This document shows positions 3,950 to 42,660 of a DNA stretch of 42,660 bases, one piece after another. The notes beneath the pieces are model-generated. The model searched no databases, was not told the DNA's origin, and saw only the letters and a list, made by a program, of their open reading frames with translations. This stretch comes from a virus. The stretch spans positions 1-42,660 of the IMG/VR virus record IMGVR_UViG_3300038441_000158; one strand, 5' to 3'. How positions within the stretch are numbered: the stretch's first letter is position 1; each line of letters starts with the position of its first letter. Both the position numbers and the translations under genes were made by a program.

Positions 3950-4905
3950 GCCAAGCCCTTCAAACCATCGCCCAGGACATCTACGGGGCGCGAGATTCGT
4001 TCGCGTCCGTCCTGACCGATAGATCACTCAGCTTCGAGCGAGAAGCCGAGTTCGCAATCCAGACCCTGACCGGCAATGACTTCGCAATGAAGATCGCGAT
4101 GCAAAACCGGCAGTCAGTCTTCAACGCAGTGACCAACATTGCAGCCATCGGCATCAGCCTGAACCCTGCCAAGCGCCAGGCCTATTTGGTCCCGCGCGAC
4201 GGCAAGATCTGCCTTGACATCAGCTATATGGGCCTGATGGACCTTGCAATGGCCACAGGAGCGATTTTGTGGGCACAGGCTGAGCTTGTGTATGCCCAAG
4301 ACTCTTTCGCCCTCAACGGCTTCGACAAGCCGCCTACGCACTCATACAACCCGTTCAGTTCTGACCGTGGCGATATCGTCGGCGTGTACGTGGTTGTGAA
4401 GACGGCAGACGGAGACTACCTGACCACTTGCATGAGCCGCGCTGACATTGATGCGATCATGAACCGGTCGCAGTCGGTGAAGTCTGGAAAGTCGTCGCCA
4501 TGGAAAACCGACTACGGCGAGATGGCCAAGAAGACCGTCGTCAAGCGCGCCTACAAGTACTGGCCGAAGACTGACCGTCTCGACAAGGCCATTCACCATC
4601 TGAACACCGACAGCGGCGAAGGTCTGGCAGCGCTGGCGCCACAAGGGACAAGCCAGCTGGCCGAGCAGTGGATTCAGCAGGCGGCTGAGTGCAGCACGTC
4701 CGAAGCGCTCAGCAATGTCTGGCGCCAGGCAGGGCCGGCGTTCAAGAAAGCGGGAGACGTTGCTGGATATGCACAGTTCAAGGCCTTCGTAGAGAAACGC
4801 GGCCAGCACCTGAAAGAGTCTGAGAAGTCAGCGCCCGAGCCCATAGAAGGGCAGATCGTTGAAACCGACAGCTTTGGCGCACCACTTCAGGAGGATCAAG
4901 AATGA
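3946..4905 (+). CDS. recT: RecT-type single-strand annealing protein
   Basis: A 319-residue protein of the RecT/Redbeta superfamily. It anneals complementary single strands on the overhangs made by its partner exonuclease. The core spans residues about 20-210, with the typical FAMKIAMQNRQSVFNAVTNI and GISLNPAKRQAYLVPRDGKI segments followed by SYMGLMDLA; the C-terminus is an acidic tail. The ATG at 3946 overlaps the previous stop (ATGA); an upstream open frame is ignored. It overlaps the exonuclease gene by 4 bases, the usual recombination pair. Confidence 0.92.
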   Translation: MSQALQTIAQDIYGARDSFASVLTDRSLSFEREAEFAIQTLTGNDFAMKIAMQNRQSVFNAVTNIAAIGISLNPAKRQAYLVPRDGKICLDISYMGLMDLAMATGAILWAQAELVYAQDSFALNGFDKPPTHSYNPFSSDRGDIVGVYVVVKTADGDYLTTCMSRADIDAIMNRSQSVKSGKSSPWKTDYGEMAKKTVVKRAYKYWPKTDRLDKAIHHLNTDSGEGLAALAPQGTSQLAEQWIQQAAECSTSEALSNVWRQAGPAFKKAGDVAGYAQFKAFVEKRGQHLKESEKSAPEPIEGQIVETDSFGAPLQEDQE

Positions 4906-10217: not shown

Positions 10218-10516
10218 CCATTCCTGAAATCGCGCCATGCCCATTCTGTGGAAGCTCTCAGTGCTCGCCGAACTACCACAACCATCGGACTTGGGTTGAG
10301 TGTGACGCTTGCGGCGCTCGCGGCCAATCGAGCAATTGCCCGAGTATTCTGGACAACCGCGGGCCTTCGGAGGGAGTCGCAATCAGGCACTGGAACCAGC
10401 GCGCCGGCCACTCAATCGCCGGCTACGAAGGTACCTCCGGCCTCTACTACAGCAAGCTCGCCGCCGTGGCCAATGGTGAACAGCGGATCGAGCCTATCTA
10501 CAGGGTGAAGAAATGA
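10214..10516 (+). CDS. Lar-like zinc protein (restriction alleviation family)
   Basis: A 100-residue protein with a zinc ribbon: Cys9-x2-Cys12 (CPFCGS) and Cys30-x2-Cys33 (CDACGARG), followed by the AIRHWNQRA motif typical of the Lar family of Rac and lambdoid phages. Lar of Rac moderates type I restriction by favouring modification. Many family members are untested, so anti-restriction is likely but not shown. Start and stop both overlap neighbours as ATGA. Confidence 0.8.
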   Translation: MTIPEIAPCPFCGSSQCSPNYHNHRTWVECDACGARGQSSNCPSILDNRGPSEGVAIRHWNQRAGHSIAGYEGTSGLYYSKLAAVANGEQRIEPIYRVKK

Positions 10517-10809
10517 ACGGGCCAATTGAGTTTACCCGGGAGCAGCTTTTGCAGATGTGCCGATCGTATCGGGCTGGCGCCAGTCTTGAGGCGCTGGGCA
10601 TGGAGTATGGAATCAGCAAGACGGCTGTATCTCGTAGGCTGAAGGCGCACGGCGTTAAGCTCCGTCCGCGCGGCTCTCCGCTTGGTGGCCGATCAAGCGC
10701 AGCCAAGGAGGCAATTCTCAAGCTGCTGGAGAAAGGCAACACGATCCATCAGATCGCTGAGTTCATGTCCGTGACCGTGAGGACCATCTACCGGAGGCTT
10801 GAGTCATGA
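10513..10809 (+). CDS. Tandem helix-turn-helix regulator
   Basis: A 98-residue protein with two helix-turn-helix units. Residues about 8-48 (LEALGMEYGISKTAVSRRLK) resemble resolvase-type HTHs, and residues about 67-97 (HQIAEFMSVTVRTIYRRLE) form a second one. Both are compact and basic. Near the end of the early operon, it is the best candidate in the window for a late-gene activator, perhaps acting on the shared TGATCA element, but that link is inference. ATGA junctions on both sides. Confidence 0.7.
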   Translation: MNGPIEFTREQLLQMCRSYRAGASLEALGMEYGISKTAVSRRLKAHGVKLRPRGSPLGGRSSAAKEAILKLLEKGNTIHQIAEFMSVTVRTIYRRLES

Positions 10810-16162: not shown

Positions 16163-16480
16163 TTACCCCCTGTGATACGTCGGCTTGCGGGGCAGCATGC
16201 GCGCTGCGTTGCCCCTGGATTGAATAACTGGGATTAGGACCATGAAAACGAAAACGGTTGACCAGATTGAGCCTGCCAGGTCTGCAACCCGGCCCTGCCC
16301 CAAGGTGATCAACGAGTAAAGCGCCCAGCCAAATGACCCTCCAGCCAAGCCCCAGGCCATCAGGCTAACGCCAGCCTTGAACCTGGCGGAAGGGTCGTGG
16401 AAACGACCCAGCATGTAGGCGATTATCAGAAGCGCGACGCTGCGCACAACCACGATCCATGTACCGAGATCACTCTCCAT
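16163..16480 (-). CDS. Holin-like membrane protein
   Basis: A 105-residue protein from ATG 16480 (GAGGTGA upstream; an in-frame ATG at 16504 lies further inside the upstream gene). Three hydrophobic segments are visible (about 7-24, 37-55 and 67-86) and the C-terminus is basic (RMLPRKPTYHRG), as in class I holins. It overlaps the upstream membrane-protein gene by 11 bases. Holin or antiholin by topology and position; not proven. Confidence 0.6.
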   Translation of the reverse strand: MESDLGTWIVVVRSVALLIIAYMLGRFHDPSARFKAGVSLMAWGLAGGSFGWALYSLITLGQGRVADLAGSIWSTVFVFMVLIPVIQSRGNAARMLPRKPTYHRG

Positions 16481-16856
16481 TCTTCTCACCTCGCTTTGCG
16501 CCAAATGGCGACCAAAGTTTGAGGACAGACACGAGCCACGGCGGGAAATCTTCTTTCTTGCTGACCATCAGAGCGATAGCCATCAGCACGAAAACCAGAA
16601 GCGCTGCGCCGAATGCCGACCAGAGCATCGCGCCCGGCTCGTAAGGCGGCCCGTCTGGGTATTTGTAGATCCCGGTGGCGTATCCAAGACCCCATGAAAC
16701 CACCGTCAGCAGCAGGCGCCTTACGCCGCTCGTGACCGATGGGTATGTCAGGTAGAAGAGGCAGCCAATGGCTGCCCCCGAGGCGGCGTATGGGTTCATA
16801 GCCACCAACCCGGCAAATAATGTTGCGGCTAGCCAAGCTCCGAGTTGCTCCGTCAT
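16470..16856 (-). CDS. Holin-like membrane protein, first gene of lysis cassette
   Basis: A 128-residue protein with hydrophobic stretches at about 5-36, 47-65 and 75-98 and a charged tail (KLWSPFGAKRGEKNGE). GGGAGGG precedes the ATG. It lies just downstream of the shared 17-bp regulatory element. With the next gene it forms a pair of small multi-pass proteins, probably a holin and its regulator; which is which cannot be read from the sequence. Confidence 0.6.
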   Translation of the reverse strand: MTEQLGAWLAATLFAGLVAMNPYAASGAAIGCLFYLTYPSVTSGVRRLLLTVVSWGLGYATGIYKYPDGPPYEPGAMLWSAFGAALLVFVLMAIALMVSKKEDFPPWLVSVLKLWSPFGAKRGEKNGE

Positions 16857-16877
16857 TCGAGTTCCCTCCCAGGGTAA

Positions 16878-16920
16878 TGATCAAATTTTAACCAGATTTG
16901 AGTTATCGACCTATTGATCA
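16878..16920 (-). promoter_or_regulatory. Candidate late promoter/regulatory element, copy A
   Basis: The 17 bases 16878-16894 (minus strand TGGTTAAAATTTGATCA) are identical to 36777-36761 upstream of the terminase operon. A second TGATCA lies at 16915-16920 and overlaps the stop of the giant virion protein gene. TAAAAT could serve as a -10 box, but no good -35 lies 17 bases upstream, so an activator is likely. It is 22 bases before the first lysis gene. Confidence 0.5.
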
Positions 16921-19900
16921 TTTTTTGGGCGGACCGAAGATGACGCCTCGCGTCCAGTCGATGACGCCTTCAGGCTCGATGTCACCTTCAGCTACGCCAA
17001 TCAGGTACTTGGCTGTGCGCTTGGGCTGCGCAGTTGGGAGACCGAAGCCGTAGCCAATCGCATCGATTGCCAGGCCTGCAGTTCTGGCGGTATCAACCTC
17101 CTTGCCTTCTGCTGCAGCCTTGCCTGCAGATCCAGCCCTGCTCAGTGCGCCGAACACTTCTCCGATTGGCGTCGCGCCTTTGTAGGCCCATCCGCTTTCC
17201 AGGCTGGAAGCTAGGTCCCGAACAAGCGGGATACCGAGCAATGGATAGGTCGCAATCTTGAGCGATGCCCAGGCGCGCCAGTCTTCATCGTCGCCAGGGC
17301 CCTGGCCGCTCACCAGAGGGCCGAGCACGGCAGGAATTGCGATCAGGAACATGGTGCGCTCGAAGACGTTCAGGTAGTCGGCCGCCCCTTTGGCTCTGGA
17401 GAAGGCGCGCTTGATGTCTACCGTGCGGTTGTACAGCAGGTTGAAATAGCTGTAGACGATGGTCAGGGCGCGCATCAGGCCATCCTTGCGCTGGACCGCT
17501 GCCAGATCCTTTGGACCGGCTGCCATCTGCGAGAGGCGTACAGCGCGGTCACCAGCCGCAATGGCCTGCTCAGAATCTAGGCCGGTATCCAGACCATGCC
17601 GGTAGCCGGCAATCCAAGTCGGGTAGTCAACCAGAGCTTGGATCACGCCGATGTGCTTGAAAGCCAGGCGCTGAACGAAGGAAAGCCAGTCGCTTTTGCC
17701 GCTGATCTGCTTCAGGACGCCGCGCATGTCGCGGTCAAGGTTATCGACGCGGAAGCGCATTTCACTAGACATCTGATTGACCATTTCCATCGAGTCGAAC
17801 GGATGGCGAATGAACTCCTGCATACCCTTGAAGATGTAGCGCTTGCCGCCGACCTTGCTGAAATATTCGAACGACTGTGAGTAGCCAAGGATCTGTTGTA
17901 GGCCGGTGGTGGCGCTGAAGCCCATGAAACCAACGGCCAGGTTTGCGCGCAAGCGTTCGGCGCCGCGGGTCCATGCGTCGATGCCCTTTTGGCTATCCAG
18001 CACCATATCGTTCGCCACGCCCTGCAGCCATGGGTTGAACTGGTTGGCAACGGCAGGCCCAAGGGTATCGATCAGCATCTGCTTGATCTCCTTGTCGCCG
18101 ATGATCTTGGCCGCGTCCCTGATGGCCTTGCGGTGCGTCAGGTCGTGGATGACCTGTCCAAGGTGCGAAGCGATGATCTCAACGTCAAGCTGGATCGGCG
18201 CCGCGAAGGCATCGACACGCGCTTTGGTGTGACCCTTCGGCGTAGTTGCCCGGGCATAGCCTTGCTCGAATAGGCCACCCTCGTTCCCCAGCTCGTTCTG
18301 TACGCCCGCGTAAGCGCTGCTGCTGGTGTCGTACACAAGAGGCCAGTAACCGCCCTTGAACGTGCCGTATTGCGTCTGTACGGGCGTGGCTTCGACCTTC
18401 TCGGGCGCAACGCCGTGCAGGTCCTTCTCCAGCTGTACGATCGATGGCCAGAGTTCTTCGACCAGATCCCACATGGACTGCACGAATTCCCAGTCGCGCT
18501 GGGTCAGATTGCCAGTGATCTCGTTCAGCTGTTGCTCAGTCCAGGCCTTACCGTTGTGGCCACCATCGAGCAGCTTCTTGCGGTTGCTGGCGTTGCCGGT
18601 GTTAAGCGCCGCCGACAGGATGGCATTCATGGTCAGGGGCTGGCCGAGGCTCTGAATGTGGATCTTCTGCTGCATGACCTTGGCGCCGCGCTCCTTGGTG
18701 TAGGCGTCGACAATCTCGGTCATCTTGATGGCGATATCACGGTTGAGCTGGTCCTTGGCGCCCTGAGCCTCAACGAAGGGCTGGAAGAAGGCGGTAGACC
18801 AAGGGCCGTCAACCTGTCCACCGTCCAGCCACTCAACGATCTGCTCCATCTTGATCAGGGCAGAGCTGTATTCGCCAGCCTGATCACCGATGCGCTCCAG
18901 TAGGGTGCGGGTGTTCTTGTCGATAGGCGGCGCCTTGCGCTTCTCAAGGTTCGCGTATCCGGCCCGGATCAGGTTGTTCTTCGCCTCTTGGAAGTCCTTC
19001 AGGCGCTTGTTCGCCAACAGCTTGTTCTTGGTACCGGCCAGGTGGTTGACGTTGGCCACGAACTCGTCAAGCTCTTGCAGCTGGTCAAGGCTCAGGTCCT
19101 TGTAGTTCACGCGCTGGCTTGTGTTCAGCAAGAACTCAGGAACGATTGGCTCGTTACCCATGGCCAGCTGATCGGCGTACCACGCAGCGAACGACTTGCG
19201 TTTGTCAATCTCGCGCAGGCTCACCTTGCGGAACTCATACTGCTCCATGACGGCGTCGATCTGGTCGAGATAGTCATGGCCGGCCTTGCCCAGGCGCTCA
19301 CGGGTACTGGCCTTGTTGTACTTGAGCATACGGGCAGTGATGTCATCCACCTGTTCGCGGGCCTTGCGCGCCTCCCGGTACATGTAGAAGTTCAGCAGCT
19401 GGCGCTGTTTAGCCTCGTAGGCTGTTTCGAGATCTCCATTGACGAACGCCTCATACGACTGGCGGCCGGCCTTGGCCTCAGCGCGCTGGAACTCTGCAGG
19501 CTGGATATCGCGAACCTTGCGTTGCAGCATGACCCGGCGCGCAGCTTCTTTCAGGATCTGCTGGGTGGTGATGTTCTTGCGGTTGCCCACCTGGGCCAGG
19601 CGGCGCAGTTCTTTTTGCAGCACCTCGGCGCGGCGCTCGTTGTGCGTTGCATCAATGGCGCGCTCTGCGGCCTCGCCAGTGGACTTTGGCCCGTGGCGCT
19701 CAAGCATGCGCTGATCTGTTTCGCGCTTGATGACCTGGCTACGCGGCTCAGCGCCGAGCAGGGCCTTGACCAACTGATCACCAGAGTCATAGCCCAGCAT
19801 TGGGCCGACAATGTCCAGGGGCTGGCCGTCGCGGGCGTGGGTGAATGCCAGCTTGCGGGTTGCCCTGGCGCCGTAGCGTTCTGCCAACTCGCCGCTGTTG

Positions 19901-22900
19901 AGCTTGATGCTCAGTTCAGTACCGTCAGGCATCTGGCCTTTACGCAGGGCGCGCAGGGCGGCGTACTCGGGCAGCGTGTCGACTTCTTCGGTGACCTCGT
20001 CGCGTATCCGAGCGGACTCCTCACGCCACCACTTCGAACGGCGACGTTCTTCTTCGCGAACGATTTCTTCCTCAATGGAATCGCGGGCGTCTGCGTGAGC
20101 CAGGTCGATGCTGTTCTGGTACGAGGCGAACTCCTGCTCAGTCATACCGGCAGCGACTGCATCCGCGAACAGAGGGATGGCGTTTGTCACCTGTTCGGCA
20201 GCGGTGATCTGGTCGTCGGTAGCAACAAGGCGGTCGAACACACGGCGCACATCGTCAGTCAATGTGACATTGAGCCGGCGCAGGTCCTTGTAGATCTGGA
20301 TCAGCCAGCGCTTGAAGCGGGCGAACGCTCCGGCCAGTTCAGGGCTTGGGGCTTTACCCTCGGCAAGATAGCTTTCGAAGCCACGGGCAAACTGCTCATG
20401 TTGCTCAGTGGTGATCGGATCGCCTTCTTCTGCGCCAAGCCAGGCGCGAATGGTGGAAACGTCATCCTTGATCTGCTCAGGCGCGTTCTCATTGGTCGAA
20501 ATTTGATCAATGACTTCGAGGTAGTAGTGTCCGAGTTCGTGCAGGACCGTGGACAGGTCGCGCTTGTCGCCCAAGGAGATCTGGAATCGTCGGTCACCCT
20601 CGCCGCGTGGCGTGAAGGTGATGAAGCCCCGGGCATCGCCGTTGTCGCTCTGGTTCAGTCGGCGCTGGCCAGCAACGGCCGCCGAGTTCATTTCTGTGCC
20701 GTTCCAGCGAACAAGGACCTGATCAGATGGCGTATCAGCGGTCTGCTCAGGGCTGGCAGCCTGCCGCTCGTCGGCGGTCATGGTGCGGCGGCGCTCGGTA
20801 TTGCGGGCCTCGACTTCGCCAGCCAGGCGACGATAGGTCGTCTCAGGGTTGCCGATATCTCGCATCACCTGCTCAGCATCGGCGGCGCGCTGCTCAATCT
20901 GCGGCAGGTCAGTCGCCATTGCATCCTGCATCTGCTGCTCGGTAGGCGTGCGCTCGAAGGTGTCGATGAATGCTTGCCTGCCAGCTTCCTCGCCAAGACT
21001 GTCGATCTCCCGGCGAAGGTCGGCCACCTGACGCCAGTAGTCGCGGTCTGCCATCGCCTGGTCCTTGTCGGCACGCATAGCGTCCTCAGAGCCGCCTGTA
21101 GCGAATCCTTCTCGCACCTGAATAGCGTGCTGTACCTCATGCAGCAGAACGTCAATAGCCGGCGAATCAGCGCTATACAGGGTGGGGTCGCCGATCTCGA
21201 TGTAGGAGCCGACGAAGCCACGTCCTGGCTGAGAAACGAACATCCCGCCAGAGCGGCGGGCGGGGTTGACTCGGATCTGGACCTGCGCCAGCTCAGGGTA
21301 CGCGGCGAACAGTGCCGGGTGATTTAGCGCCTCGCCAAGCATTACGCCATCGACCTCGGCGTCATCAAGCCAGTCGTTGACAGGGGCGAACTGGGCTTGG
21401 CTATCGTCAATCTCGAAACGCCACTTGCCATCGGCGCCCTGTGCCCAGCCGGTCTCGCGGCGCACCTGCTCAGCATTGTCGCCATCCGCAATGCGCTGCT
21501 CGGCGTCGGCCAGCGATGACATGTCAGCAGTCCAGGCGGTCTGTCCAGCGAACTGATCCAGGCGTCGGCCCTGCTGCGGTCCAGCCTGTTCGGCGGTGAA
21601 GGTCAGCGGGAATTGCTGGCGGATCTGTTCCAAGGCTTGGCCGGTGCGCTCGGCCAGGTTGCTCAGTACGGACAGGTGCACGCTGGCGTACTGCTCGGCA
21701 TCTGCGCGGCGATACCCGGACGCAACAAGGTCATCGACAACTTCGCGGTAGGCATTGGTCTCCGGTGAGTTCTGCTGAACGATCTTGCCGAGGTCATCAA
21801 GCTGTGCTTCTTGGTCCGCAGTCCAGGCCTCGACATCTGCAGGACTCATGCCATCCGCCTGAGTGCGGATGCTTTGGCTGAGGTCTTGGTGATAGTCAGC
21901 GAAGACCCGCAGGTAGTCAGCAGTCTTGATTGCCACGCTGCCACCCCGGGCAGAGGCATCAGCGAACTGCTCGGTCATGCCCGGGATCGACAGCATCAGC
22001 TCTGGCAAATCGGCCTTCCCGTCTTGATTCAGACGGGTCAGTGCCTCTGCAGGAATCCACAGGGTTTCCATCGGCGTATCGGCAAGCTGGGCCTTGGCGA
22101 TGTCGCCGAAGGTGTCAGCTTCTCGGCCACGGGTCTTGCTGCTCAGCGAGGCGTCGACCATTTCATCCAGGGATGATTGACTCACCCTAGACTCACGCGC
22201 CCTGCGAAGACCATCCTTGATTCCCTCAATCAAGCGCCTGTTGCTAAAAGCAAGCACATCCAGTGACGACATGCCCGCCCCCGCAACCGATTCAAGAAGG
22301 ACTTCGCCAGCGTTTACTTTCCCTTCTGCTGCGAATTGCCCAGCTGCTTCGCTTGCCCCCTCACCTACACCTTGCACAGGGAATTGAATTGCGAGGTTTG
22401 CCAGTTCCCGCTGAGTATTCGTCAGGCTTCTTCCAGCGATCCTAGAAGGAGCAAGAAGTTTGCTTGCCAAGCCCATGCTAACCAAGTCTACGGCGGTGGT
22501 CCCAGCAGCCTTTAGGCTAGCCTTGCGCTCGGCTTGCGCCATTAGGTTGTCATCTTGTAGAGCCCTAAGAACTGCCTTTGGGTTGTTGATGTCTACCTTT
22601 GCTTCTCGCAGAACGTCCAGAATCTTGGACTGGTACTCGCCAGCGAAACCAATACCTCCGGCTGCTAGTGGTCCGGCTAGCGCGCCGGCAATAAGCATTT
22701 CTGCGCTGGTGGCACCCGCCCCAAAAGATGTCCTTACGGCGTACCCAGGGTTTTCTGCAAGAGCTTCAGCGGTTGCTGATAGGCTGCCTCGACCGGTTGG
22801 CTGCTGATAAATCTGCCGCTCAATGCCGCCAAGTGGGATGCCGACTGAAAGCCTGTTCTCAAGCTCAGCCGCTCGGCGTGCGCCTGGGTCCACTGGCATG

Positions 22901-32326: not shown

Positions 32327-32622
32327 TCGTCACTCCCAGTCTGTTGTTCCTGCGCTTCACGCAGAAGGCGTTCCCGGTTTTCTTTGACCATCAGGTCGTA
32401 AAGCTCTGGCACGTAGGCGATCAGGTCGCTCATCAGCTGAAGGGCGTTACAGCGCTTGCCCTCGTTGAACGCCAGTGTGCCGTGTTCTTGGTTCGGGGCC
32501 GCCTGGTAGATGGCTACCACCTCAAACCGCTCCCAGATGACCCTGCGCGCCTGTACGGTGCTCATGATCGTCTGGTAGCCCAGTTGCCGTTCAAGTTTAT
32601 CCGCTTCCGCTTGGTTGCTCAA
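32323..32622 (-). CDS. Bbp19-like head-module protein
   Basis: A 99-residue helical protein matching Bbp19 of BPP-1 and its epsilon15 counterpart (RRVIWERFEVVAIYQAAPNQ, then FNEGKRCNALQLMSDL). I place the start at TTG 32622, with GAGGTG nine bases upstream. A TTG at 32643 overlaps the portal stop but lacks a ribosome site. Function is not established; it always lies between portal and scaffold genes in this clade. Confidence 0.75.
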   Translation of the reverse strand: MSNQAEADKLERQLGYQTIMSTVQARRVIWERFEVVAIYQAAPNQEHGTLAFNEGKRCNALQLMSDLIAYVPELYDLMVKENRERLLREAQEQQTGSDE

Positions 32623-32639
32623 AATTTGTACACCTCGCT

Positions 32640-34675: not shown

Positions 34676-35104
34676 TCACTCCTTGGTGATTGCGTACATG
34701 ACGATGTCTTGGCCATCAGGTGAGGCCTTGCGCATTGTGGATTCAAACGTGTGGCCTGTCGCCCTGAGGAATGCGGCGCTGTGGCGGTCGCTGGCGGCGC
34801 AGGTTGATTGGACGCGGTGGAGGCTGTCGGAATGCATGAGGCGGTCGATGCTTGCGGCTACTGCCCGGGCAAGGCTCAGGCCGCTCCCCTTGACTGCTGC
34901 ACGGTCTATTACTGCGAACGCATATGCCACGCCATTCCAAAGCAACTGGTAGCCCGATACAGCGACGATCTGCTCGCCTAGGTAGTACGAGGTCAGGCCG
35001 CATGCCTCAGCCTCTGTATGCGCCTCCCAGCCCTCGCATGGGTTCTCTTCGTAGCACGGCAGCCGGGCAAGGTCGCCAGCCTGGTATGGCCTTGTCGTGA
35101 TCAT
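34676..35104 (-). CDS. GNAT-fold protein
   Basis: A 142-residue protein from ATG 35104, which overlaps the terminase stop (ATGA); an in-frame ATG five codons earlier is rejected. GNAT-like elements are the N-terminal MITTRPYQAGDLARLPCYE, a core strand VAYAFAVIDRAAVKG, and DRHSAAFLRATGHTFEST at the C-terminus. It resembles the 26285 gene in fold, so the phage carries two. The acetyl-CoA loop is not obvious. Confidence 0.7.
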   Translation of the reverse strand: MITTRPYQAGDLARLPCYEENPCEGWEAHTEAEACGLTSYYLGEQIVAVSGYQLLWNGVAYAFAVIDRAAVKGSGLSLARAVAASIDRLMHSDSLHRVQSTCAASDRHSAAFLRATGHTFESTMRKASPDGQDIVMYAITKE

Positions 35105-36435
35105 GCGTAGGGGTTCCATTCGGTCTGGACTTCGGCGCCAGTACCAGCTGCGTAAGGGTCCCAGTTGGTATGCGAACCTCTGTGCATGCCGTCCTTCTTC
35201 ATCACTGGCATGGCAAAGGTCAGGGCAAGCGCGTCGGCAGCGTCAGGAGATGGCAGCCCCCTTGCCTTGATATCGTCCTTCGACTCCAACTGGATCTTGT
35301 TCGCCCGGTCGTAGCTGTAGGTTGGCGTGGCCAAGTCCTGCTTTAGCCGCATGTTGTTGGCGATCACGCCGCCAGACCTTACCCACTCAGCCATCTCGTA
35401 CCACATCTCAGCGCGCTTGTTCTTGTACTTCAGGTTGGTCGCAGCCCCGCCGAAGTGAACCTCGATGATGTCGATGTAGCCAAGCTGCCTCAGGCGATCA
35501 ATCACGCCCTGGCCGTGCCCGGCATCGATGAACACTGCGTCAGGTTTGTGCTGCTGGATCTGCGCAGCGACATGGGAGGCGAACTGCATGTTGTCGATGC
35601 CGTTCCACTCAAGCGGCTCGTAGCTGGCCAGCCCCTGCCGGCGAACGATGGCGCACGAGTCGTTGCCGAAGCGCGCCACGTCGACGCCAAGGATCACTGG
35701 GGCGAAGCTGTATTGGTCTGGCCTGAGCTGTCTGCGCGATGCGTCTTCGATGTTTGACAGGCTCATGAGCTGGTCATCGCCCGCAGCAGAGAAGTCGCAC
35801 AGGTATTCCCGGGCAAATGCGTTCTCACTCATGTCAGCCCGCAAGCGCTCAACCTCAACAGGGTCAATCGCCTGGGTGTCGTACACGGTATATCGAACGC
35901 TGCACCAGTCAGCCTTCTGCATGCCTTCGAAGTAGAGCTTGGAGAACAGGTTAATGCCGTGCGGGGTACCGATGAACAGGGCCCAGCCCTTGCGGTCGGA
36001 CAAGGCCGGCTGTGCTACCTCCTCCCATAGCTCAGGCTTGATCTGCGCTACTTCGTCAATCACGACCCCGTCCAGGCGCAGGCCGCGCATGGCATCCGAG
36101 TTATCACCGCCAAACAGGCGAATCACCGCGCCATTGTGCGGAAACCTGATCCAAAGCTCAGACTCGTTGATCTCGATGCCGGGGATCTTCCCGCAGTAGT
36201 GCTTGAGTCGCTGCCACGAAATGGCCTTTGCCTGCTTGAGGAACGGCGCCACATAAGCAAAAAGGCCAAGCTCTTTCTGGAAGCGCATGGCCTTGTCTAT
36301 CAGCTCCATCACCGCAAGCTCTGTCTTTCCTGCCCGCCGATGGAGAGCGCACACAGTGAACCGCTTGCGCTGGGTGTGGACTTGCTGCTGCCATCCCCTG
36401 GGCCTGTAGCCTAAGTCAACGGTCTGCGTCTGCAT
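35101..36435 (-). CDS. terL: Terminase large subunit
   Basis: A 444-residue DNA-packaging motor. ATPase: Walker A HRRAGKTE (32-39), Walker B VVIDE (124-128), coupling motif GTPHG (156-160). Nuclease: acidic residues Asp252 (GVDVARFG), Asp304 (FIDAGHGQG) and Asp398 (PSPDAADAL), an RNase-H-like fold. GGGGTG precedes the ATG. It overlaps the small-subunit gene by 20 bases. Confidence 0.93.
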   Translation of the reverse strand: MQTQTVDLGYRPRGWQQQVHTQRKRFTVCALHRRAGKTELAVMELIDKAMRFQKELGLFAYVAPFLKQAKAISWQRLKHYCGKIPGIEINESELWIRFPHNGAVIRLFGGDNSDAMRGLRLDGVVIDEVAQIKPELWEEVAQPALSDRKGWALFIGTPHGINLFSKLYFEGMQKADWCSVRYTVYDTQAIDPVEVERLRADMSENAFAREYLCDFSAAGDDQLMSLSNIEDASRRQLRPDQYSFAPVILGVDVARFGNDSCAIVRRQGLASYEPLEWNGIDNMQFASHVAAQIQQHKPDAVFIDAGHGQGVIDRLRQLGYIDIIEVHFGGAATNLKYKNKRAEMWYEMAEWVRSGGVIANNMRLKQDLATPTYSYDRANKIQLESKDDIKARGLPSPDAADALALTFAMPVMKKDGMHRGSHTNWDPYAAGTGAEVQTEWNPYA

Positions 36436-36703
36436 TAGGCACCCCGGTCACAACGTTCAGATTGAGCCCTCCAGTGTGTTCCATCTCTTGCTTGGCCTTA
36501 CCATAGCCCCTATCGAAGATCTCCTTCACAGCGGCCACTCTGGCGGCGTGAGGGGCATCCTTGTCGCGCATGATCTTCACCAGGACCTCAAGACCATCCT
36601 GCCCATAGCTCTGAGCAAGTTCCTTGATGTCAGCAGTCACCTTGTTGCGTGAGCCAGGCTTTCTCCCTGCCCCCTCGCGCTTACCGCCACGTTGCGCAGC
36701 CAT
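36416..36703 (-). CDS. Terminase small subunit-like protein
   Basis: A 95-residue basic protein starting MAAQRGGKREGAGRKPGSRN, the motif shared by many small DNA-binding terminase partners. A helical middle (VTADIKELAQSYGQDGLEVL) follows. AAGGAG precedes the ATG. It is the first gene after the candidate late promoter and overlaps the large subunit. It probably recognises the packaging site. Confidence 0.78.
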   Translation of the reverse strand: MAAQRGGKREGAGRKPGSRNKVTADIKELAQSYGQDGLEVLVKIMRDKDAPHAARVAAVKEIFDRGYGKAKQEMEHTGGLNLNVVTGVPNADADR

Positions 36704-36724
36704 AAGTCACTCCTTATTCGATAT

Positions 36725-36777
36725 TGGTTGATTTTTGATCAACGACTGAATCTTTTGAATTGATCAAATTTTAACCA
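36725..36777 (-). promoter_or_regulatory. Candidate late promoter/regulatory element, copy B
   Basis: The minus strand 36777-36761 (TGGTTAAAATTTGATCA) is identical over 17 bases to 16894-16878. An inverted, diverged copy lies on the plus strand at about 36723-36742 and matches 17 of 20 positions when aligned from ATTGGTT. The AT-rich gap contains two TGATCA sites 25 bases apart. TAAAAT could be a -10 box without a good -35, so activator control is suspected. It sits 58 bases before the terminase start. Confidence 0.55.
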
Positions 36778-36804
36778 ATCATACCAGAGCAAACGGCAGG
36801 AATG

Positions 36805-36826
36805 AAAAAGCCCACCGAAGTGGGCT
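36805..36826 (-). terminator. Intrinsic terminator after the 36989 cassette
   Basis: On the minus strand AGCCCAC, loop TTCG and GTGGGCT (36826-36809) are followed by TTTTC. It separates the small cassette from the terminase operon. Confidence 0.85.
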
Positions 36827-42265: not shown

Positions 42266-42660
42266 ACGCCCAGTACCTTGGCCACGTTCTCAGGTCGAGT
42301 CAGGAACTCGAAGTCAGCCTTCCAGCCACGGTCGTTGTTGCCACGCCAGTGCTGGTTTTCAAGGCAGTCAGTGAAGTAGGCCTTCCAGAAGTCGGCGCCC
42401 ATTTCACGGAACGGGCGCTGGCCACGGATTTTCAGATCCATCAGCTTCTTCACGTTGGCTGCGCGCTTTGGCGTCATCAGTTCGGCGCCCTTGAAGACAC
42501 CGCCACAGACTTCCTGATATGCCTTGAGAATCTCGTCATTCGACGGTCGGCCATCTTGATGGTCGACAGAATTGCTCTCCTTCTCTGTATTACTTAAACC
42601 TGTATTCTTCCCTTGCGTGTTTTCCGAAGAACCTTCATCGCCTTTTCCGAAGTGGTTCTT
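42262..42660 (-). CDS. Replication initiator (phage O-like), C-terminal part; continues at 391-1
   Basis: This is the C-terminal portion of the initiator begun at 391. After the low-complexity linker comes a helical domain (EILKAYQEVCGGVFKGAELM, then PFREMGADFWKAYFTDC) and an ending HWRGNNDRGWKADFEFLTRP, common at the C-termini of phage O-like proteins, where the helicase is contacted. Counting one copy of the 82-base repeat, the whole gene is 708 bases. Counting both copies breaks the frame. Confidence 0.8.
   Translation of the reverse strand, partial: KNHFGKGDEGSSENTQGKNTGLSNTEKESNSVDHQDGRPSNDEILKAYQEVCGGVFKGAELMTPKRAANVKKLMDLKIRGQRPFREMGADFWKAYFTDCLENQHWRGNNDRGWKADFEFLTRPENVAKVLGV
42579..42660. 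repeat. Terminal direct repeat, right copy
   Basis: Copy of positions 1-82 with one mismatch (T at 42653 versus G at 75). See the left copy: only one of the two belongs in the closed genome. Confidence 0.9.

Follow-up and report, generated by a model that had tools for sequence, protein, structure and literature searches.

The genome analysed here, an IMG/VR virus record of 42,660 bases considered over its whole length and called the window below, carries an identical 17-bp element, TGATCAAATTTTAACCA, ahead of both its terminase genes and its lysis genes. We consider it probable, if well short of assured, that this element is the site of a dimeric DNA-bending protein, most likely host Fis, and that such sites, arranged in pairs, would restrain late and lysis transcription. 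The original prediction had taken it for the phage's late promoter or activator site. A conserved regulatory site does stand where the terminase unit begins and immediately ahead of the lysis genes, and 'late promoter region' was right. However, the element fits host Fis and lies 3' of the −10, touching it; a host Fis site is likelier than a phage activator site, and the prediction was probably wrong on both the factor and the sign of its effect.

The copies at 16878–16894 and 36761–36777, about 20 kb apart, agree letter for letter. Several other features first noticed with them were also recovered: the gaps that hold them are short and AT-rich (61% AT at 16857–16917 and 68% at 36704–36790, against 42% for the whole window), a diverged inverted copy with three mismatches lies beside one of them (36725–36741, minus strand), and each gap has a second TGATCA, at 16915–16920 ahead of the holins and at 36736–36741 ahead of the terminase. 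A further copy, with two mismatches, is found at 20493–20509. That the identity is unlikely to arise by chance is a weaker argument when taken alone than had been supposed, some exact 17-bp direct repeat being present in 8 of 100 shuffled genomes. It is reinforced by the fact that TGATCAAATTTTAACCA is the sole such repeat in the window, end repeat aside, that both copies lie in gaps, and that four matches to the 17-mer pattern with at most three mismatches were observed, against 0.02 expected by chance. The two halves of the 17-mer form an imperfect palindrome, TGRTYAAA-N-TTTRAYCA, as would be expected for the site of a dimer. Of the two half-sites, TGATCA varies less, which would also fit another dimeric regulator.

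Among candidate proteins, Fis has a 15-bp consensus, GNTYAAAWTTTRANC, listed with a Kd of 0.2–1 nM (PMC6907758). The cores of the two copies (16879–16893 and 36762–36776) match it at every position, with no mismatch. Fis also favours T/A at ±8, where G inhibits binding (PMC4784862); the sites called H1, T1 and T2 below and the copies in Pseudomonas phage AF all have T and A there, and the inhibitory G is absent. The broader consensus applied to P. putida, GnTYAWWWWWTRAnC (PMC4278767), has exactly six matches in the window at one mismatch or fewer (approx. 1.1 expected), two of them exact (0 expected). They start at 16879 and 16916 in the holin gap, at 36726 and 36762 in the terminase gap, at 32617 at the start of the gp6 homologue and at 20494 in coding sequence, so that four of the six form two pairs, one per gap, with centres 36–37 bp apart. 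In phage AF, broad-consensus matches occupy the four corresponding places (29; 4600; 16647; 20225 with 20262). A site for IHF was also considered and rejected, as the element, read by eye, does not fit WATCAANNNNTTR.

In the terminase gap, the two predicted sites, recorded without strand like all those below, have centres 36 bp apart. T1 (36761–36777) is a perfect Fis consensus with core 36762–36776, GATCAAATTTTAACC, and T/A at ±8, and T2 (36725–36741) has core 36726–36740, GGTTGATTTTTGATC, with one mismatch to GNTYAWWWWWTRANC at the critical position 5. Two minus-strand genes follow: a 95-aa ORF (36416–36703; phrog_15261, function not annotated), probably the small terminase subunit by its position and with no homology to the AF TerS, and the large terminase subunit (35101–36435; phrog_2, E=6.9e-57). 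Directly adjoining T1, at 36778–36786 on the minus strand, is a candidate extended −10, TGGTATGAT, which is plausibly that of the terminase unit; no classical sigma-70 −35/−10 pair was found in this gap. An intrinsic terminator (AGCCCAC-TTCG-GTGGGCT, then a T-run; 36809–36826, minus strand) separates the upstream operon from this candidate promoter and, since it stands just before TGGTATGAT, the terminase operon should need a promoter of its own. In the relative G002 (locus L098, approx. 4750–4850), a tRNA-Gly (TCC)-like sequence sits in the interval from the gp65 homologue to the terminator that precedes the terminase promoter.

The arrangement is conserved beyond the window. The sequence TCTGGTATGATTG is kept in AF, G002, G004, G005 and L135. 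In AF, G002, G004, G005 and the window the site comes immediately after it, and the position of T1 relative to the −10 is the same in the AF-like relatives. Both are retained despite differing sequence further upstream in G004 and G005 and differing terminases in the window. At the same spot of the terminase gap, AF reads TGATCAATATTTGACCA and the window TGGTTAAAATTTGATCA, that is, opposite orientations, which palindromic recognition would allow. A palindrome whose orientation changes from AF to the window is unlikely to be a dedicated phage late-promoter sequence.

If transcription starts 6–8 bases downstream of TATGAT, the predicted start point falls inside T1, and a bound dimer would cover approximately −6 to +11, which we infer to be the position of a repressor. 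Known class I and class II activator sites lie upstream of or at the −35. That Fis or another factor instead activates late transcription, close to what was first proposed, is improbable: late genes do lie downstream of the sites, and some P. putida promoters, lapA among them, are activated by Fis (PMC5612765), but the element starts right beside the −10 and extends across the predicted start point, and no promoter was recognised further downstream for which the sites would be upstream. It is by position only that an activator role seems disfavoured.

The holin gap shows a similar pair, with centres 37 bp apart. H1 (16878–16894; core 16879–16893) is again a perfect Fis consensus and is invariant in five AF-like sequences, and H2 (16915–16930; core 16916–16930, GATCATTTTTTGGGC) has one mismatch to GNTYAWWWWWTRANC, at the non-critical position 13; against the broad consensus, H2 and T2 have one mismatch each. 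The 2232-aa ORF that precedes the gap ends at 16918, and its stop codon falls within H2 and is overlapped by the second TGATCA of this gap, so that the original statement that coding constraint does not apply was nearly, rather than wholly, right. The lysis/tail-spike unit begins on the minus strand with two holin genes, at 16470–16856 (phrog_198, E=4.1e-12) and 16163–16504 (phrog_217, E=1.6e-13). Aligning the gap across the five AF-like sequences, we found the 17-mer, TGATCAATAG and the block AAAAAATGATCAATAG to be invariant, and the 16-bp spacer between the invariant blocks to have one invariant column; the holin protein of the window shares only 66% identity with that of AF. No convincing full or classical sigma-70 promoter was found in the holin gap, and TTAAAAT, inside H1, is the only −10-like sequence just ahead of the holins.

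Two TGATCA copies in a leader transcript would be able to pair, and the window's terminase leader folds slightly better than its shuffles (z −1.96). An RNA element such as a hairpin or an attenuator is nonetheless scarcely credible here, given that the other leaders gave z values of −0.25, −0.42 and −0.84, that the AF terminase leader holds one copy only, and that conservation tracks the DNA palindrome, in either orientation.

Two weaker matches lie outside these gaps. The one at the start of the gp6 homologue (32616–32632; core 32617–32631, GCTCAAAATTTGTAC, one mismatch) overlaps the ribosome-binding site and the TTG start codon, and AF, G002, G004, G003, G006 and G007 each have a counterpart there. 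The other, a one-mismatch match inside the 2232-aa ORF (20493–20509), was set aside: the surrounding DNA is the same in AF, and its conservation is thus uninformative.

The window has a direct repeat of 82 bp at its ends, and its genome is probably complete; the two terminal copies (1–82 and 42579–42660) differ by one mismatch, and this is therefore not a plain assembly overlap. Its late half is approximately 90% identical in DNA to phage AF, terminase genes excepted: two thirds of TerL aligns with that of AF, at 33% identity, and the two TerS proteins are unrelated. The replaced segment spans 35101–36703, and the genes directly downstream (gp3–gp5) have 97–100% protein identity, which is a sharp swap of the terminase module. 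AF-like Pseudomonas phages keep both positions of the element, with changed surroundings and early regulators and, in the window, changed terminases. The comparison with relatives that had been proposed at the outset found the sites present, not absent, upstream of the same genes in the AF-like phages. At two mismatches, 19 of the 26 records behind the loci gave no match, hence the sites belong to an AF-like subgroup, to which the gp6 site in G003 and G006 is to be added; one further match lies in G025.

The same comparison bears on packaging. TerS, or a host bending protein, might bind the element and so place the first cut, and the terminase genes do have one copy immediately on their 5' side, while the TerS of AF and three other TerS genes with an upstream site belong to phrog_51. 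However, the window's TerS is unrelated to that of AF, yet the site is kept and doubled; G003 and G007 encode TerS proteins approximately 50% identical to that of AF, and the site is absent there; and the holin copy is 20 kb away. As the site does not track the type of TerS, we regard a packaging start as very unlikely.

Which protein would then bind? Palindromic 17-bp sites at several late genes of one genome resemble an operator set, and the window does encode DNA-binding proteins, namely an early regulator of 57 aa (Pfam P22_Cro, 932–1105) and a double helix-turn-helix (HTH) protein (10513–10809). The latter has 98 aa and two helix-turn-helix stretches, and is 95% identical in G004. The element could thus be the operator of a phage-encoded dimeric repressor or late activator of AF-like phages, resembling a Fis site by chance. 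We hold this to be rather unlikely, since neither candidate has a homologue in AF (the P22_Cro-like protein is unrelated to AF gp49), though AF keeps the sites, and since the match to the Fis consensus would be mere coincidence. Further, no other HTH domain was found in Pfam among approximately 30 small window proteins, and no site matching the 17-mer was found near the cro-like gene. Upstream of that gene, a perfect 8+8 inverted repeat, TTTGCAAG-CCC-CTTGCAAA (1157–1175), is a candidate early operator distinct from the late sites. None of the DNA-binding proteins found in this way is common to the window and AF, which tells against a phage activator as first proposed, though a regulator with no recognised domain would escape such a scan. 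As no phage regulator that was found follows the sites, and the sites persist, a host protein is more likely than a phage one.

Host Fis, an abundant nucleoid protein that bends DNA, is the protein we favour. The host of the window is presumably that indicated by phage AF, and the P. putida strain in L328 has a Fis of 106 aa (PDB Fis match, E approx. 1e-24). Six P. putida-group genomes were scanned with the 17-bp pattern at two mismatches or fewer, the reversed pattern serving as control: 102 near matches were obtained against 23 for the control, a 4.4-fold excess. Those inspected were often intergenic and recurred next to mnmG. In L403, L405, L414 and L416 of this group, the near-consensus site stands just upstream of mnmG (gidA), a gene located beside the replication origin. 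The perfect strict 17-mer had no copy in the P. putida genomes, and thus no site found in those chromosomes comes as near the ideal as the phage copies do.

Similar sites occur in other phages. Among viral contigs, at least 120 stretches carry TGRTCAAAWTTTGAYCA, against 53 in total for the composition-matched control TGRTCTTTWAAAGAYCA. A rough gene model placed 50 of the 126 matches listed between genes, compared with 9 of 56 control matches (p = 0.002), an excess that is only supportive, the loci being neither GC-matched nor de-duplicated. Three groups with no relation to AF (L105, L118 and L123) carry the exact 17-mer ahead of TerS genes. In the L105 TerS family, collected by protein and including some contigs already found by the motif scan, the site is present with one mismatch or fewer within 75 bp of the gene in 11 of the 11 loci with upstream sequence. 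L123 has three Fis-like copies within approximately 230 bp (2194 to approx. 2430) upstream of its phrog_51 TerS. In an unrelated phage family (L419, L426 and L428), Fis-like sites lie approximately 60 bp before terS, and again in the terS–terL gap and at the start of terL. We raise tentatively, as a possibility that is itself doubtful, that several unrelated phage families independently placed high-affinity Fis sites at terminase promoters, with a growth-rate protein of the host gating late expression and lysis.

In the scheme that we propose for the window, each late gap would hold a pair of predicted Fis sites, one perfect and one weaker, 36–37 bp apart. Fis on T1 would cover the start point and so restrain the terminase–structural operon, and Fis on H1 would cover the −10-like TTAAAAT just ahead of the holins. 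Fis level peaks in fast growth. A drop in Fis as growth slows, or its dilution by replicated phage DNA, could ease the block, and the expression of late and lysis genes would thereby be tied to both the growth state of the host and the phage copy number. Repression is the outcome we infer from the position of the sites; Fis can alternatively activate, or act structurally, at such sites. If the scheme holds, a phage with no recognised late activator reads host physiology through Fis, which would offer a simple, testable account of growth-phase effects on late expression and lysis timing in phages, and a motif to seek in other phages.

Full-text searches, with most subscription journals outside their scope, returned no literature that connects Fis with the terminase or late promoter of a phage. 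The stoperators of mycobacteriophage L5, asymmetric 13-bp sites of a phage repressor, likewise recur in the short intervals around start and stop codons in late operons, whereas the window sites are palindromic and fit a host protein. Like lambda-type 17-bp operators, the element is a 17-bp imperfect palindrome covering a start point, here a predicted one, but it comes without a conserved CI/Cro-type protein, and the early divergent promoter showed no copy of it. Phages use Fis at the excision site of lambda attR and at the Gin and Cin enhancers of Mu and P1; in these too, host Fis is recruited by phage DNA, but they serve recombination, whereas the predicted sites of the window lie on the late and lysis units of a virulent-type podophage. 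The closest parallel in position comes from P. putida, whose Fis represses lapF by occluding the −10 from an overlapping site with the same consensus (PMC4278767). This Fis-F2 site resembles the phage sites in its 15-bp consensus, in its overlap with the −10 and in belonging to the host genus that AF infects; it is, however, chromosomal and was shown by footprint and reporter, whereas the phage sites are predicted and paired, with one perfect site in each pair.
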